Positions 56,928-64,000 of a stretch of 64,000 nucleotides of DNA are shown piece after piece. Positions within the stretch are counted from its first letter, which is position 1. The number at the start of each line of letters is the position of its first letter. This DNA is from Lampropedia hyalina DSM 16112. GTDB lineage: Bacteria; Pseudomonadota; Gammaproteobacteria; Burkholderiales; Burkholderiaceae_C. The position numbers were made by a program, and so were the translations under genes. The stretch covers positions 1 through 64,000 of the forward strand of contig NZ_FQUZ01000007.1 of the NCBI RefSeq assembly GCF_900129055.1, read 5' to 3'. The notes beneath the pieces were generated by a model. It was given only the letters and a program-made list of their open reading frames with translations. It had not been told where the DNA came from and made no database searches.

Positions 56928-58439
56928 TCACAGACCCGAAGCAGCACGCACTTTCTCGAACACCTTGGTGTTGTCGTAAGTGCCCTTGAAGTGCTGGGAA
57001 CCTGCTCCACCGGCGTACAGCATCACGTCGCCACCACCGTGGGTTTCGGAGCCGGGGCCACCGCGCAGTTCGATGCCGACTTCCTGGAGGAAGTTATCGG
57101 CTGTGGTATCGACATTGCTGAGGTCCTGGCGTGCGGCACTGCGGGCAGGCGAGAGGAAGGGCTGGCCGTCGTCGCTGTTGATGGCTCCCTCGGCGGCACG
57201 TCCGCCGTTGCCGAACACCAGCGTGGTGTAGGGCTTGCCATCGGAGGCCTTGACCACGTCACCGCTGCTGTAGTCGTGTACCAGACCGAGGATCGGGTTG
57301 CCGATCTTGGTGTAGCCGTTGAAGGCCATCGCATGGTCATGGTCGGCGGTGACGACGATCAGGGTGTTTTGCAGGCCGGGGTCTTTCTGGCCCATGAAGT
57401 CCAGGGCCTTCTGTACCGCTGCGTCCAGTGCGAGGGTGTCTTCCAGCGCGCGCTTGGCATTGGAGCCGTGCAGGGCGTGGTCGATGCGGCCGCCTTCGAC
57501 CATCAGGAAGAAGCCGTTGTCATTGCGGCTGAGCACTTGCAGGGCCTTCTCGGTCATCTGCGATAGGCTGGGCTCGTTCTTCTGGAGCTTCACGCGATCC
57601 AGTTCATAGGCCAGTTCGCTGTTGGCGAAGATGCCCAGCAGCTTGCTGGTGTTGCTCACATCCAGGCTGGCCAGTGCGGAGCCGGAGTCCACATACGCAT
57701 AGCCCTGTGTCTTCAGGTCTTCGACCAGATTGCGCTCGTCGGTGCGGCGGCTGCTGGCATACACCGACTTGGGCAGGTAGTTGCGCCAGCCGCCACCGAG
57801 CATCACATCAATGCCGTTCTTCAGGCGCGGGTTGAACTCGGGGTAGCCCGGCACGGACTGTTCGGCAATGGTGTTGTAGGCATTGCGGTTGCAGACGTGG
57901 GCGTAGGTGGTGGCAGGCGTGGCATGGCCCAGACGGGTGTTGGAGACCACGCCGGTGGAGCGGCCCTTGTCGATGGACAGCTCCAGCAGGGTTTCGGCTG
58001 CCTGGCCATTGCCTGTCGGACAGGTGGTGTCCTCGCCGCTGATGTACTGCGAGCCATCAGGGGCATAGGCCAGGGTTTCTGCGGACATGGAGATGACTTC
58101 GTTGTTCATCTTCACGCCGGTCATGTAGGCGGCCATCGACGGGGCACTGTCGGTGGTCTGGCCGTCGCGCGAGAAGGTCTTGATGCGACCGGCATGGCCC
58201 AGGTTCTGCATCGCCAGCTTGGCGCGTTCGGGCGATTCCAGGCTGGCTCCGTTGGCGAGTTCCTTCTCGCCCTTGTAGATGCGCGAGGCGGTGATGGTGA
58301 CCGGCCCCATGCCGTCGCCCAGGAAGAAGATCACGTTTTTGGCGGTGGCGGTGTTCTGTGCCAGGCTGCCGGTGGCCGTGCCCAGCAGGGCCAGGCCCAG
58401 TGCCAGTGCCACGGAGGTCTTGCGGGTGTTGGTGTTCAT
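56928..58439 (-). CDS. phoA: Alkaline phosphatase (PhoA family), secreted
   Basis: 503 residues. The signal peptide MNTNTRKTSVALALGLALLG... is cleaved near SLAQ. Active-site features are D42 (FFLGDGMG), the nucleophile S98 in TDSAPSMAAYMTGVK, VEGGRIDHALHG for the metal ligands, and VTADHDHAMAFNG. It releases phosphate from organic esters in the periplasm. The start at 58439 follows AAGGAA. It lies 35 bases downstream of a second phosphatase gene and should share that gene's Pho-controlled promoter. A terminator follows. Confidence 0.93.
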   Translation of the reverse strand: MNTNTRKTSVALALGLALLGTATGSLAQNTATAKNVIFFLGDGMGPVTITASRIYKGEKELANGASLESPERAKLAMQNLGHAGRIKTFSRDGQTTDSAPSMAAYMTGVKMNNEVISMSAETLAYAPDGSQYISGEDTTCPTGNGQAAETLLELSIDKGRSTGVVSNTRLGHATPATTYAHVCNRNAYNTIAEQSVPGYPEFNPRLKNGIDVMLGGGWRNYLPKSVYASSRRTDERNLVEDLKTQGYAYVDSGSALASLDVSNTSKLLGIFANSELAYELDRVKLQKNEPSLSQMTEKALQVLSRNDNGFFLMVEGGRIDHALHGSNAKRALEDTLALDAAVQKALDFMGQKDPGLQNTLIVVTADHDHAMAFNGYTKIGNPILGLVHDYSSGDVVKASDGKPYTTLVFGNGGRAAEGAINSDDGQPFLSPARSAARQDLSNVDTTADNFLQEVGIELRGGPGSETHGGGDVMLYAGGAGSQHFKGTYDNTKVFEKVRAASGL

Positions 58440-58474
58440 GTCGAAATTCCTTGGTGTGTGAAGGTGTTGGCGGT

Positions 58475-59896
58475 TCACTTCAGGTCGATGGCGGTCTTGA
58501 CCAGGCCGAACACGTCGGTGTTGGTCAGCGTGCCACGGAAGTTGTCCGCACCCAGGCCCTTGGCTCCCAGGAACACATCGCCGCCACCGTGGGTTTCCAC
58601 TTGCAGCGGAATCACGGCTTCTTGCAGGTAATTGGGGTTTTCCATGTCGGCGGCGGTGAGCGGCGCGCGTGCATCAGGGCGATTCGGGCCGTTGCCGAAG
58701 CCCAGAATCGTGTAGCTGTTGCCGCTGATGTCCTTGGACTCGCTGCCATTGACGTAGTTGTTCACCAGGCCCAGCACACCGGGCTTGCCCGGCTCGGTCT
58801 TGCCGGTGCGCGCGGCATAGCCGTTCATTTGCAGGGTGTGGTCATGGTCGGCAGTCACCACCACCAGGGTGTTTTGCAGGCCGGGGTCGATGGTTTCCAG
58901 CTTGGCCAATGCGGTCTTGATGGCTTCGTCAAAGGCCACGGTGTCCTGCAATGCCCGGCGGGCATTGGTGGCGTGCAGCGCGTGGTCAATGCGCCCGCCT
59001 TCCACCATCAGGAAAAAGCCCTTTTTCTGGGCCGCCAGCACGTCGATGGCCTTGGCGGTCATCTCGGCAATGCTGGGTTCCTTGGTCGGGTCGCGGTCCA
59101 GGTCGTAGCTCATGTCGCTCTGTGTGAACAGGCCCACGACCTTGCGGCCATCGGTGGGCAACTGGTCGAAACCGGCACGGTCGGTGGTGACCGTGTAGTT
59201 GGCTTTCTTCAGCTCTTCGAGCAACTGGCGTTTGTCGTTGCGGTGGCCGCCTTCTTCCTTGGGCACGAAGTTGCGGATGCCACCACCCAGCACCACGTCG
59301 ATGCCGTCGGCCAGCTTGGCGTTGTAGCCCTGGCCACCGGGCACGAGGGCTGCGGCAATCGTGTTGTAGGCATCACGGTGGCACACATGGGCGTAGGCGG
59401 TTGCCGGGGTGGCATGGGTCACGCGGGTGGTGGTGACGATGCCGGTGCCGTAACCGGCGGCTTTCATCTGCTCCAGCAGGGTATCGACGGGCTGACCATT
59501 GCCGGTAGCCGGGCAGGTGCTGTCGCTGTCCTGTACATAGGCCTTGCCCTGGGCATCGACCGCGCTGGTGTCGGCGGACATGGAGATGACCTCGTTGTTC
59601 ATCTTCACGCCGGTCATGTAGGCGGCCATCGACGGGGCACTGTCCGTGACCTGACCGTCGCGCGAATAGGTGTGGACGAAGGCGGTTTCCGGCAGGGTGT
59701 CGATGGTCAGTTCACCGTCTTCGCCTACGGCGTAGATGCGCGCAGCGGTCAGTGTGGTGATGCCCATGCCATCGCCCAGGAAGAACACCACGTTTTTCTG
59801 TGGGGCAGGGGTGCTGGCATGGTCGTCGTTGCTGCCGCAGGCGGTCAGTGCGATGGCCGCACCCAGCAAGGTGGGGTAAAACAGTTTCTTGTGCAT
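58475..59896 (-). CDS. Alkaline phosphatase, predicted lipoprotein
   Basis: 473 residues of the same family as the downstream gene: FFLGDGMGITTLTAARIYAV, nucleophile S86 in TDSAPSMAAYMTGVK, VEGGRIDHALHATN, VTADHDHTLQMNG. It differs by having a lipobox, LTAC with C20, so the protein should be lipid-anchored rather than free in the periplasm. The two paralogues share long identical stretches around the active site, indicating a tandem duplication followed by divergence in localisation. The upstream Pho box at 59970-59987 predicts induction by phosphate starvation. Confidence 0.93.
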   Translation of the reverse strand: MHKKLFYPTLLGAAIALTACGSNDDHASTPAPQKNVVFFLGDGMGITTLTAARIYAVGEDGELTIDTLPETAFVHTYSRDGQVTDSAPSMAAYMTGVKMNNEVISMSADTSAVDAQGKAYVQDSDSTCPATGNGQPVDTLLEQMKAAGYGTGIVTTTRVTHATPATAYAHVCHRDAYNTIAAALVPGGQGYNAKLADGIDVVLGGGIRNFVPKEEGGHRNDKRQLLEELKKANYTVTTDRAGFDQLPTDGRKVVGLFTQSDMSYDLDRDPTKEPSIAEMTAKAIDVLAAQKKGFFLMVEGGRIDHALHATNARRALQDTVAFDEAIKTALAKLETIDPGLQNTLVVVTADHDHTLQMNGYAARTGKTEPGKPGVLGLVNNYVNGSESKDISGNSYTILGFGNGPNRPDARAPLTAADMENPNYLQEAVIPLQVETHGGGDVFLGAKGLGADNFRGTLTNTDVFGLVKTAIDLK

Positions 59897-60137: not shown

Positions 60138-61568
60138 TCATTTTCGGTTCTGGCCCAGCGCAACGGGCAGCAAGACCAGAATGCCGGTGAAGAAAAAGGC
60201 CATGCCGGTCGAGAAAGCCACAGAGTGTTTCTCCACTTCGACATAGCCATCCCCAAAGATGGACGAGAGAATCGAGTAGCAGGCCATCACGCCACCGATG
60301 CCCGCACAGAGCAAGGCGTTCGAGACGGCTGGGTGTGGGGAGCGCAGGGCCGCCAGCAGCAGCAGGGGGGCCGCCGCGAACACTGCGATGAAGCCCCAAA
60401 GGGAACTGTGGGGGTTCCAGTCGTGGAATCGCTTCAGCATGTAGGACGTGGAGGTCTGCTGTGCCAGGGCCAGCGTGGCAGCATCGACAACGGCCCCCTT
60501 TTCCTGATAGCCCAGGTTTTCCGGGTAAAACGGGTACAGCTCCCGCATTCCCTTGACGAAGGGCCGCCAGAATGTGCCGGGGTCAGTGGCAAACAGCGGC
60601 AACAGTTTGGCCCGGCTGACGTGGGCGATTTCCGGGCAGACATCCCGGATGGATATTTCGGTCGCATACCAGTTGAAGCCAATCGCCTGTTCGCATCGTT
60701 CGGGCAGATTCAGTATCTTCAGTGCCTGCTTTTTGTCCTGGGCTTCGGGCAGCACCGTCCACATGAAGGTGTTGGTCTTGTTCGCATAGCTGATGCCGGA
60801 ATTGTTTTTGGCCGAGATATTCGAGTATTCGGTATAAATGAACGGCAGCAGCACGGCCAGACCGAGCAGGGAGGTCGCAAACTTCCATTTCCGGTACTGG
60901 AAGTGGTACACGGCCGCGCCCAGCACGGCCAGAAAACAGGCCAGCGGCATGTATTGCTGCTTGGCCAGGCCCAGTGCCACGATGGATGCCATGAACAGCA
61001 GCCACCAGCGCGGCCCGGAAAATCGCTCGTGGCTGTTGATGCTCAGCAGCACGCCCACACTGAAGAACGCTAACATCAACACCTGAAACTCCAGATAGAG
61101 GGTATTGACGTAGAGCAGGTTGTAGAAATCGCTGAACACCAGCAGGAAGGCGATCGACAGCAGCCAGCGGGTGGGGAGCAGGTTGCGCTTGAGCAGGAAA
61201 ATCGCCATGGCAAAAATCGCCAGAATCTTGATGGCCGACACATAGCGAATATCCAGCGGGCTGCCCAGGCGGGTGGTCAGTGCGGCCAGATGGACAAATG
61301 AATTGCCTGTCGAGCGCAGGCAGAGGTCCTTGCGCCTTTCGCCATCATTGACGAATGATTTGACGAAGGACTCGTGATTGCCGTCGAATTTTTCCTTGCC
61401 CTCGTACTGAATCCAGATTCCAGTGCAACTGGACTGGCGGATGAAATCCCAGTTGTTGCCATAGCCCATGGCGGACGAGCCAAAGACCACAAAAAAGACT
61501 TTCCATGCCACCGCCGCAAAGGCAAGCACGAAAAATACCTGGAATATCTTGGGATGCAGCGATTTCAT
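60138..61568 (-). CDS. Multipass membrane protein, possible GT-C arabinosyltransferase
   Basis: 476 residues with about 10-12 predicted membrane segments, starting with FQVFFVLAFAAVAWKVFFVV. A periplasmic-looking loop early on contains NNWDFIRQSSCTGIW, and a large loop after the middle contains several cysteines (PERCEQAIGFNWYATE, VCPEIAHV). This layout, with acidic and aromatic residues in the first loop, is that of GT-C lipid-phosphosugar-dependent glycosyltransferases, but no family motif is conclusive. It begins 12 bases after the DprE2-like gene. I infer that it transfers the sugar made by the DprE1/DprE2 pair. It seems AT-richer than its neighbours, as does the downstream gap. Confidence 0.7.
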   Translation of the reverse strand: MKSLHPKIFQVFFVLAFAAVAWKVFFVVFGSSAMGYGNNWDFIRQSSCTGIWIQYEGKEKFDGNHESFVKSFVNDGERRKDLCLRSTGNSFVHLAALTTRLGSPLDIRYVSAIKILAIFAMAIFLLKRNLLPTRWLLSIAFLLVFSDFYNLLYVNTLYLEFQVLMLAFFSVGVLLSINSHERFSGPRWWLLFMASIVALGLAKQQYMPLACFLAVLGAAVYHFQYRKWKFATSLLGLAVLLPFIYTEYSNISAKNNSGISYANKTNTFMWTVLPEAQDKKQALKILNLPERCEQAIGFNWYATEISIRDVCPEIAHVSRAKLLPLFATDPGTFWRPFVKGMRELYPFYPENLGYQEKGAVVDAATLALAQQTSTSYMLKRFHDWNPHSSLWGFIAVFAAAPLLLLAALRSPHPAVSNALLCAGIGGVMACYSILSSIFGDGYVEVEKHSVAFSTGMAFFFTGILVLLPVALGQNRK

Positions 61569-61580
61569 GCCGGTTCGGAT

Positions 61581-62333
61581 TCAGATATTGGTTTTGTGGA
61601 ACAGAAAGCGCGGCATCAGCTTGATGACCGCCATGATGAACCGCCACTTGGCCGGGGTGTACCGCACGGGGGTGCCGTGGTCGATGGCTTGCAGAATGTC
61701 GGCGGCCACCTGTTCCACGGGAGCCAGTGCCGGGCCTTTGCCCTGGAGGTGCGCGGTCATCGGCGTTTGCGTGGGGCCGGGCTTGATGAGCACCACCTTG
61801 ATGGCGGTGGCTGCGAAGCGGTGCTGCATGCCCTCGGCATAGCGGCTGACCAGCCCCTTGGCGGCACCGTAGCTGTAGTTGGACTTGCGCCCCCGGTCGC
61901 CTGCCACGGAGCCGATGATGGCCAGCGTGCCCTGCTGCTGTTTTTCCAGGTGCAGGGCAAAGGCTTCGGCAAACAGCACGGGCGATACGCCATTGATCTG
62001 GAGGGCCGCATTGCAGATTGCCAGATCGGTCTGGCATTGCTGCTGCTCGGGCAGTGTGCCGTGCGCGATCAGCACAATGTCGATGCGACCCCCGGAGGCA
62101 ATCGCATGGGCCGCATCGCCAATGGCCTGGGGGTCCAGAAAATCGCAGGTGCGCACTTCCACCTCGGATTGGGGGCTGCGCACGCGCAGGTCGTTGGCAA
62201 TGCGTTCGAGTTTGCCGCTGTCGCGGCCCAGCAGCACCAGTTGTACCGGTGCGCGCTGCACCCACAGGCGGGCACAGTGTTCGGCCATGGCAGAGCTTGC
62301 GCCGACGATGACGATTCTTTGGGGGGAATTCAT
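61581..62333 (-). CDS. dprE2: DprE2-like decaprenylphosphoryl-2-keto-ribose reductase (SDR)
   Basis: 250 residues of a short-chain dehydrogenase. The cofactor loop is IVIVGASSAMAEHCARLW, and the catalytic residues are S142 (IIGSVAGDRG), Y155 and K159 (YSYGAAK). The C-terminus (VRYTPAKWRFIMAVIKLMPR) with a hydrophobic helix is the DprE2 pattern. In mycobacteria DprE2 reduces the 2-keto intermediate made by DprE1 to give decaprenyl-phosphoryl-D-arabinose. It begins 11 bases after the DprE1-like gene on the same strand, so the epimerase function is inferred for the pair. Confidence 0.85.
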   Translation of the reverse strand: MNSPQRIVIVGASSAMAEHCARLWVQRAPVQLVLLGRDSGKLERIANDLRVRSPQSEVEVRTCDFLDPQAIGDAAHAIASGGRIDIVLIAHGTLPEQQQCQTDLAICNAALQINGVSPVLFAEAFALHLEKQQQGTLAIIGSVAGDRGRKSNYSYGAAKGLVSRYAEGMQHRFAATAIKVVLIKPGPTQTPMTAHLQGKGPALAPVEQVAADILQAIDHGTPVRYTPAKWRFIMAVIKLMPRFLFHKTNI

Positions 62334-62344
62334 GGAAGCTTTCT

Positions 62345-63682
62345 TCAGTCGATGAGTCTGCGCGAGAGGCTGGAGCCGATGCCGGGGTCGCGCAGGGGCA
62401 GAAATTCGGGCAGGCGCGGGTAGCCCGTCTGGAACAGGGCGCGGGACATGCGCGCATCCTTGGCCGGGTAAATGCGACCCCCGGCTTCGCGCACGATGGC
62501 ATCCAGCCGCTCCAGCAGGGCCAGGGTCGGGGTATCGTGATTGGGAAAGTCCAGTGCCAGGGTGGTGGCACCGGGCAGTGGAAAGCCCAGCATGCCCAGC
62601 GAGGCTTGCGGGCCGAAGGTCTTGAGCACAGCCAGGAAGGAGCCGCTGCCGCTGCGGGCAATCTCCTGCAACATGGCGTGGGTGGCCGCTTGGGCGTGTG
62701 CGGCGGGAATGGCACTCTGGTACTGGTAGAAGCCCTTGGGGCCGTACATGCGGTTCCATTCCAGCAGGCCATCGAGCGGGTAGGAGTATTGCTCGTAGTG
62801 AACGATGCCGATGTCCGCCCGCGCCTTGCGGGCATTCAGGCGGTAGTACATCTCGTTGAAGGGTTTCAGCGACAGCCCATTGACCAGCGAAAACGGCGGG
62901 GTGAAGGGCAACCGGCGTTCCCTGGGGTGGGGCAGTGGCACATCGGGGCGTGCCTGTTGCAGTGGCCGCGCGCGCATGAACAGGCCACGCTGCTGGCTGG
63001 AGAGGCAGTCGATCCAGGATACGGTGTGTTCCCAGTCCTGTTCGGAGTCATGGGCCAGCCGGAAGAATTCGTCCAGCCCGGCATAGGGAACCGTCTGCGC
63101 TTGCAGCCACGGCCCGGCCACGCGCCGCAGGCGAATGGTCGCTTCGGTGATGACCCCCGTCAGCCCCATGCCGCCGACGGTGGCCGCAAACCATTGCGGC
63201 GTGCGCTCCCGGCTGCATTCCAGCACCTGCCCATCGGTGCGCACCAGGGTGAAAGATTGCACATGGTGGCCGAAAGAACCCTGAACGTGGTGGTTCTTGC
63301 CGTGTACGTCATTGGCAATCGCGCCGCCCACGGTGACGATCTGGGTACCGGGCGTGACGGGCAGCATCCAGCCCTGCGGGACGAACACGCGCTGAATGTC
63401 GCGCAGCAGCACACCAGCTTCACAGCGCAGGTCGCCGGTGGCGGCATCGAAGGCCACGAAGCGATTCATCCCGCTGGTCTGCCACAGGGTGCCGTGCGGA
63501 TTGAGGCCCACATCGCCGTAACTGCGCCCCATGCCGAAGGCCAGACCCGGCAGGGAGCTGTGGCCGATGTACCGGGATGCAGTGGCGGGGTCGTCCAGAG
63601 CCACACACTGGTGCGGCATCGCCCACAGGCGGCCCCAGGAGGTGACGCTCTGTACCTGTGCTGCCATGTCACGCTCTTTCAT
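62345..63682 (-). CDS. dprE1: DprE1-like decaprenylphosphoryl-ribose oxidase (FAD)
   Basis: 445 residues, close to mycobacterial DprE1 (461). FAD-binding motifs are FGMGRSYGD (Y55), PVTPGTQIVTVGGAIANDVH and GKNHHVQGSFG (residues 109-138), and ATVGGMGLTGVITEATI. The substrate domain has EWNRMYGPKGFYQYQ and IYPAKDARM with K408, matching the catalytic lysine K418 of M. tuberculosis. At the position of Cys387, the residue modified by benzothiazinone drugs, this protein has alanine (A376 in TTLALDFP). The start overlaps the stop of the upstream gene by four bases. Confidence 0.87.
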   Translation of the reverse strand: MKERDMAAQVQSVTSWGRLWAMPHQCVALDDPATASRYIGHSSLPGLAFGMGRSYGDVGLNPHGTLWQTSGMNRFVAFDAATGDLRCEAGVLLRDIQRVFVPQGWMLPVTPGTQIVTVGGAIANDVHGKNHHVQGSFGHHVQSFTLVRTDGQVLECSRERTPQWFAATVGGMGLTGVITEATIRLRRVAGPWLQAQTVPYAGLDEFFRLAHDSEQDWEHTVSWIDCLSSQQRGLFMRARPLQQARPDVPLPHPRERRLPFTPPFSLVNGLSLKPFNEMYYRLNARKARADIGIVHYEQYSYPLDGLLEWNRMYGPKGFYQYQSAIPAAHAQAATHAMLQEIARSGSGSFLAVLKTFGPQASLGMLGFPLPGATTLALDFPNHDTPTLALLERLDAIVREAGGRIYPAKDARMSRALFQTGYPRLPEFLPLRDPGIGSSLSRRLID

Positions 63683-64000
63683 GGTGTATTGGTTCCCAGA
63701 ATGAGATGTCCGATGACATAGGTTGCATCCCCGCCTTCGGCCACGATGCGCAGGCGGTCAGCCACCGGAGTGCCGGCGGGCACTGACAGTCGGTGGCGTG
63801 CCATGCCAGCAGTGTAGGCCGGTTCCATGCGTGCCACGACATGCCATCGGCCAGCCGATTCCACCAGGATGGTATAGCGGTCGTTGTTGTCGAAACTGAC
63901 GTCGATGCTTTGGAACGCCTGTGGCTGCTCCAGCAGCACGTCGAGGCTGTGCTCGAACCGGTGGTTGCCCGGCGCGTTGTGCGGTGTGCCGTCTTCCACG
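63679..64000 (-). CDS. C-terminal part of an unidentified protein upstream of dprE1 (partial)
   Basis: The last 107 codons of a gene that continues beyond the right edge. The visible part is beta-rich and soluble (FQSIDVSFDNNDRYTILVES, RHRLSVPAGTPVADRLRIVA), like the C-terminal jelly-roll or carbohydrate-binding-like domain found on some membrane glycosyltransferases. A GTG near the edge could be read as a start, but the frame continues through the edge and there is no start context. Its stop overlaps the dprE1 start (ATGA), so it belongs to the same operon. Confidence 0.6.
   Translation of the reverse strand, partial: VEDGTPHNAPGNHRFEHSLDVLLEQPQAFQSIDVSFDNNDRYTILVESAGRWHVVARMEPAYTAGMARHRLSVPAGTPVADRLRIVAEGGDATYVIGHLILGTNTP

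Follow-up and report, generated by a model that had tools for sequence, protein, structure and literature searches.

The window analyzed here is a stretch of 64,000 nucleotides from Lampropedia hyalina DSM 16112 (contig C25:1-64000; genome 3.18 Mb). The contig continues to 131 kb and was read past the window edge. A complete gene set spanning 7.3 kb lies across that edge. Between 66007 and 60138, in the direction of transcription, the minus strand carries genes for a GtrA protein, an AftB-like protein, a DprE1-like oxidase, a DprE2-like reductase and a WsfD-like membrane protein. The plus strand diverges from these at 66066 and carries, as far as 67411, a UbiA gene followed by a gene for a 143-residue PAP2-like protein (PF02681). 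The homologies and gene order make it likely that this divergent set makes and uses polyprenyl-phosphate D-arabinofuranose. Four minus-strand genes in the window had been described from the sequence alone as separated by 11 to 12 bases or overlapping by four, and the open reading frames (ORFs) are spaced in this way: two gaps measure 12 and 11 bases, and a single overlap measures 4 bases. The host appears to be Gram-negative from its gene content, for example from pseudopilins that resemble a type II secretion set by eye.

Table 1. Genes of the divergent set on contig C25 and the homology matches of their products
Feature	Position	Strand	Matches
WsfD-like membrane protein, 476 amino acids	60138..61568	-	NCBIfam NF051875 137 bits, cut-off 80
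DprE2-like short-chain reductase, 250 amino acids from its ATG	61581..62333	-	PF00106; NF005489, NF053786
DprE1-like oxidase (flavin adenine dinucleotide-dependent type), 445 amino acids	62345..63682	-	NF053785 335 bits; solved DprE1 5e-67
AftB-like protein, 650 amino acids	C25:63679-65631 (window holds the C-terminus, 63679..64000)	-	AftB 9dlf 5e-17; NF041481 69 bits
GtrA flippase candidate	C25:65612-66007	-	NF037976 184.5 bits, cut-off 50
UbiA phosphoribosyltransferase	C25:66066-66947	+	NF008978 222.7 bits, cut-off 207
PAP2-like/DUF212 phosphatase candidate	C25:66980-67411	+	PF02681 111 bits, cut-off 26.5

Donor-pathway genes

The DprE1-like oxidase is matched best by NF053785 among the NCBIfam models, where the next family reaches 54 bits, and by solved DprE1 chains in the PDB, with the next family at 2.5e-10. 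A generic identity for the oxidoreductases was set aside because the oxidase scores far above these next families. In a hand-read alignment the residues corresponding to K418, K367, F369 and Y60 are conserved in the oxidase, together with the HGKNHH and QYQ stretches, and it has Ala376 at the place of C387 and Thr at the place of N385; these are positions that we take to belong to the DprE1 active site. The top NCBIfam model for the reductase is an unnamed short-chain dehydrogenase/reductase (SDR) model, NF005489 (237 bits, cut-off 267), and the DprE2 model NF053786 comes second with 144 bits. The sequence-only reading had named both enzymes as DprE1 and DprE2 homologues. Neither fell outside these clades: DprE1 is the best and DprE2 the second-best NCBIfam score, each below its cut-off.

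UbiA passes the model for decaprenyl-phosphate phosphoribosyltransferase, NF008978, and misses the sister models NF008977 (223.8 of 234 bits) and NF008976 (165.5 of 474 bits). Its PDB matches at E ≤ 1e-3 are to decaprenyl-phosphate phosphoribosyltransferase only, the best being 8j8j (1.6e-39). This UbiA is the third in the genome, and the remaining two fit the general Pfam model much better. The gene starts ~2.1 kb past the window edge and is adjoined by the phosphatase candidate. Absence of a phosphatase from the set was set aside when a homology scan and reading of the DNA found the PF02681 candidate.

UbiA would carry out the phosphoribosyltransferase step of the donor pathway, on a lipid that is probably undecaprenyl phosphate. 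The DUF212 protein may be the 5-phosphatase that takes off the 5-phosphate. DprE1 would then oxidize C2 and DprE2 would reduce C2 in the other configuration, giving polyprenyl-phosphate D-arabinofuranose. On these homologies it is very probable that a lipid-linked D-arabinose donor is made. The donor half of the earlier proposal, a polyprenyl-phosphate arabinose operon with UbiA and phosphatase genes to be sought in the DNA right of the window, is thus supported by DprE1, DprE2, a UbiA of the phosphoribosyltransferase kind and the phosphatase candidate.

Candidate transferases

AftB is the mycobacterial transferase that caps arabinose chains with terminal β-D-arabinofuranose, a retaining enzyme with a β-(1→2)-D-Araf product. 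The sole PDB match of the AftB-like protein, searched as a single sequence, is AftB of M. chubuense (9dlf). AftB is again the sole PDB match of a profile built from five relatives (A2), at 7.3e-36; the aligned stretch begins in the first helix region and extends into the periplasmic part, up to profile position 464. The catalytic and donor-contact residues of AftB, according to PMC12041299, are D62, T91, E172, R221, T274 and R372, and they include the catalytic Asp of the DD motif. A hand-read alignment gives each an identical partner in the AftB-like protein (D41, T70, E140, R181, T235 and R310, respectively). The AftB-like protein probably uses the lipid-linked D-arabinose donor, and it would move arabinofuranose onto a surface glycan or protein, which may be bound by the periplasmic part at its C-terminus. 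The donor-site residues do not discriminate a retaining from an inverting mechanism, and a β-linked product is a tentative suggestion. The C-terminus at the window edge had been read as beta-rich and of no known kind; the gene end is indeed present, and it is the C-terminus of a 650-residue AftB homologue.

When genome contigs were scanned with the AftB-like protein, a single relative came up, in a Ventosimonas metagenome-assembled genome (L070). This closest relative (L070:3739-5375) is split over three frames, by assembly error or as a decaying gene. A 537-residue protein of L051 matched weakly by BLAST and was without a match in the profile scan. The AftB model is matched by 11 of 14 rows of the AftB-like alignment, and NF047440 or NF046093 is matched as well by some of the rows. 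Two plasmid proteins that are weakly AftB-like, from Rhodococcus ruber and Tsukamurella (H24 and H26), carry the annotation 'flagellar motor control protein ZomB', a name that may mislead.

GtrA would assist the transit of polyprenyl-phosphate D-arabinofuranose to the periplasmic face. The WsfD-like protein passes the NF051875 cut-off, matched no Pfam family, and as a profile found no relative among solved structures (best E 0.82). L107 has a homologue close to its DprE1/DprE2 genes, and L032 (65 bits, below the cut-off) and L093 (by likeness to L032) have more distant ones. The WsfD-like protein is probably of the GT-C kind and a second candidate glycosyltransferase, which would add the first arabinose or a further sugar. 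The sequence-only reading had taken this multipass protein for the transferase of the operon. It stands as a candidate, but there are two, and the one with kinship to a mycobacterial arabinosyltransferase is the AftB-like gene. Within the set, G+C is lowest in the WsfD-like gene (0.57), and the lowest value among the stretches tried in the window is that of the 1.5 kb from 60001 (0.552 against a mean of 0.632); this hints that the gene is of foreign origin.

Distribution in other genomes

The co-occurrence of AftB-like proteins and DprE1 was counted in an order draw and a phylum draw of genomes, with thresholds chosen by the analyst (AftB-like, E ≤ 1e-8 for the order and profile E ≤ 1e-15 for the phylum; DprE1, E ≤ 1e-40). 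Among 399 genomes of the order, AftB-like proteins were found in 7, DprE1 in 40 and both in 6 (hypergeometric P = 4.6e-6). When the genome studied here was left out, five of the six AftB-like genomes had DprE1 (P = 4.0e-5), and counting by genus gave DprE1 in 4/5 AftB-like genera versus 22/158 (P = 1.3e-3). The exception, G528, is a genome that is 87% complete. The 398 genomes of the phylum draw contained 53 with DprE1 and 4 with an AftB-like protein, all four of which had both (P = 2.8e-4; 3/3 and P = 0.002 without the own genome). Because some genomes occur in both draws and close relatives are not independent of each other, the P values serve as guides.

The core module was compared across 64 DprE1 loci (L004, L031-L054, L070 and L089-L126): 24 from a family draw, in which 25 of 200 genomes had DprE1 with the own genome included, 38 more from the order draw, this operon and L070. 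The DprE1 of L125 is doubtful (35% identity, long branch). Genes of the relatives were called by a crude script, 'many-helix' refers to a hydropathy count, and 'PF03706-like' denotes resemblance to the protein of L054, the sole one scanned. L031, L035 and others stop at contig edges, where absences mean little. Within the fetched stretches, a DprE2-like reductase is present in 62/64 loci and UbiA in 47/64. GtrA occurs in 15 loci, a PF03706-like membrane protein in 24 and neither in 25, with no locus sharing the two (P = 2.5e-4 on raw counts). The 47 UbiA loci include 26 with a fused or adjoining HAD domain, 5 with DUF212 and 16 with neither, and no locus has both (P = 0.013 on raw counts). Tests on a tree of the 64 DprE1 proteins gave 4 independent pairs for GtrA versus PF03706-like and 2 for HAD versus DUF212 (starred branches, median p 0.5). 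Flippases and phosphatases that are interchangeable for one lipid-linked sugar are a working hypothesis. A sixth UbiA-DUF212 pair lies outside the 64 loci in L138, and the divergent UbiA-DUF212/GtrA-DprE1-DprE2 arrangement recurs in L032, L042, L090, L095 and L138. The context of the core varies: it adjoins polysaccharide export genes in Salipiger, and on a Burkholderia stagnalis plasmid (L129) UbiA, FAD oxidase, SDR and GtrA genes lie near an isonitrile synthase gene.

Several results count against a set that makes and uses lipid-linked D-arabinofuranose. DprE1 does not reach the curated NF053785 cut-off of 500, which among 14 control genomes was passed by C. glutamicum only, and the DprE2 cut-off of 250 is not reached either. 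The AftB-like protein scores 68.9 bits over residues 31-259 against an NF041481 cut-off of 1050. The AftB residues D62, E172 and R221 are kept in 12/12 alignment rows with letters and R372 in 10/12, mostly in proteins that are not beside DprE1, so their conservation may be a superfamily trait and not a sign of arabinose use. In the alignment, R372 and T91 are missing from the AftB-like row of L041, a protein of another genus encoded beside DprE1, and L032 has the gene order seen here, but the AftB-like gene is absent. In 7 of 9 other genomes the AftB-like and DprE1 genes are on different contigs or >800 kb apart (G227, G237, G277, G322, G444, G590 and G648); they are near one another in this operon, L070, L041 (a weak match, 3e-7) and L136 (~8 kb apart). 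Weak AftB-like matches appeared in nine plasmid records, including Leptospira (8e-18) and actinobacteria, and of the nine the Salipiger record alone is also among the 20 listed of 64 plasmid records with DprE1. Finally, pilin searches of the genome and the surroundings of the set found no acceptor.

Acceptor, alternatives and known systems

In one alternative, type IV pilin would be the acceptor, as it is in P. paraeruginosa, and the transferases of the operon would stand in for TfpW. Two loci of one genus (L034:4921-10698 and L037:5145-10928) carry the module in a row with a PF00114 pilin, a many-helix protein of 630-670 amino acids, a TfpX/TfpZ-like accessory, GtrA, DprE1 and DprE2, and these rows are probable pilin arabinosylation loci; the L034 accessory scores 150.7 bits with NF041437 against a cut-off of 200. 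L095, L101 and L102 also have pilin-like genes, some kb away from the core, and the one in L101 is ComP-like. Against this, a search of the own genome with PF00114 (classical pilin) gave no match, where E. coli alone was positive among 14 controls. The many-helix protein of L034, a query that is not proven to be TfpW and was run without a positive control, also had no match in the genome. No pilin gene is near the set, and the nearest pilin-like gene lies ~26 kb past its end. Pilin, one of the acceptors that the sequence-only reading had proposed, thus finds no support in the own genome, and this alternative is unlikely. Short pilin-like ORFs that end soon after the N-terminal helix were seen at ~93.8-94.8 kb of C25 (L005, L077) and on contigs C36 (L078) and C47 (L074). 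Those of C25 and C36 are ~62 amino acids long, and after one on C25 comes a separate ORF that seems to start with a signal peptide; they recall the split PilA-N/PilA-C of Geobacter.

A donor of polyprenyl-phosphate arabinose would also arise if both membrane proteins used other lipid-linked sugars and the arabinose transferase were encoded elsewhere. NF051875 is named for a hexose transferase, the donor residues are common to a wider family, and an AftB-like relative in L063 sits in an apparent polysaccharide synthesis and export cluster (by eye) with no DprE1 beside it. The genome-wide co-occurrence of AftB-like proteins with DprE1 and the tight, overlapping spacing of the genes argue the other way and make separate sugars improbable. 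Delivery of the lipid-linked pentose to a lipid or secreted small molecule in place of a surface polymer is suggested by the isonitrile synthase gene beside the B. stagnalis set and is the least probable outcome, given the two large sugar-transferase-related membrane proteins here, the export genes beside the Salipiger set and a B. stagnalis locus with no transferase annotated by name (an 811-residue hypothetical protein there was left aside).

Use of the D-arabinofuranose donor by the set itself invites comparison with the mycobacterial decaprenyl-phosphoryl-arabinose pathway (Rv3806c, Rv3807c, DprE1/DprE2, Rv3789) and AftB. Shared features are UbiA, DprE1 and DprE2 homologues, a GtrA-family protein, which we take Rv3789 to be, and an AftB homologue with identical donor-site residues. 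The set differs in its apparently Gram-negative host, its DUF212 phosphatase candidate, its donor lipid, which is probably undecaprenyl, and its combination of one AftB-like and one WsfD-like protein.

Gram-negative bacteria are already known to have a lipid-linked D-arabinose pathway (PMC12369383 and PMC11127046). PMC12369383 and PMC11841053 describe α-1,5-linked D-arabinofuranose on the pilin of P. paraeruginosa and a gene set including ubiA, and Kelly et al. 2024 (PMC11127046) describe pentofuranose systems with DprE1/E2 homologues for arabinofuranose-containing glycans. By these descriptions (PMC12369383, PMC11127046), P. paraeruginosa PA7/Pa5196 (PSPA7_6245-6251, TfpW) resembles L. hyalina as a Gram-negative with a phosphoribose synthase, a phosphatase and further D-arabinofuranose genes. 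The L. hyalina set differs in having an AftB-like protein, no pilin gene nearby and no TfpW-like match to the L034 query described above. The three-component systems of Citrobacter youngae O1/O2 (GT136; PMC11127046) have a polyprenyl phosphoribose synthase, a flippase and a periplasmic GT-C whose C-terminal domain is beta-rich. UbiA, GtrA and the AftB-like protein supply these three parts in one locus here, by homology. In contrast to C. youngae, the flippase is GtrA and not MATE, UbiA is not fused to HAD, and DprE1/DprE2 stand in place of the ORF13 epimerase. A GT136 kind was set aside for the AftB-like protein, in which D41-A-A-I-T differs by eye in active-site order from the D31-x-x-E34-Y35 of GT136.

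What may be new is that an operon of this sort holds an AftB homologue, and with it a possible β-linked D-arabinose. A survey of the literature by titles and abstract openings, with preprints and most subscription journals outside it, gave no report of a D-arabinose operon in a Gram-negative that contains an AftB homologue or DUF212. A Gram-negative that builds a mycobacteria-like terminal β-D-arabinofuranose on a surface glycan, with an AftB homologue fed by its own DprE1/DprE2 pathway, is a possible but doubtful prospect. To our knowledge, there is no earlier candidate gene outside Actinobacteria for terminal β-D-arabinofuranose, and D-arabinofuranose usually counts as a hallmark of mycobacteria. 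The DprE1 homologues in 53/398 phylum genomes suggest that bacteria other than mycobacteria may commonly have lipid-linked D-arabinose, where it may be served by exchangeable transferases and perhaps by exchangeable flippases and phosphatases. The AftB homologue offers an enzyme for studying retaining GT-C chemistry, and arabinose epitopes may be shared with mycobacteria.

Beyond the set lie SnoaL-like and short-chain dehydrogenase genes that are apparently unrelated to it. Adjoining the set in the window, at 56928-59896, are two tandem overlapping genes that look alkaline phosphatase-like by eye.

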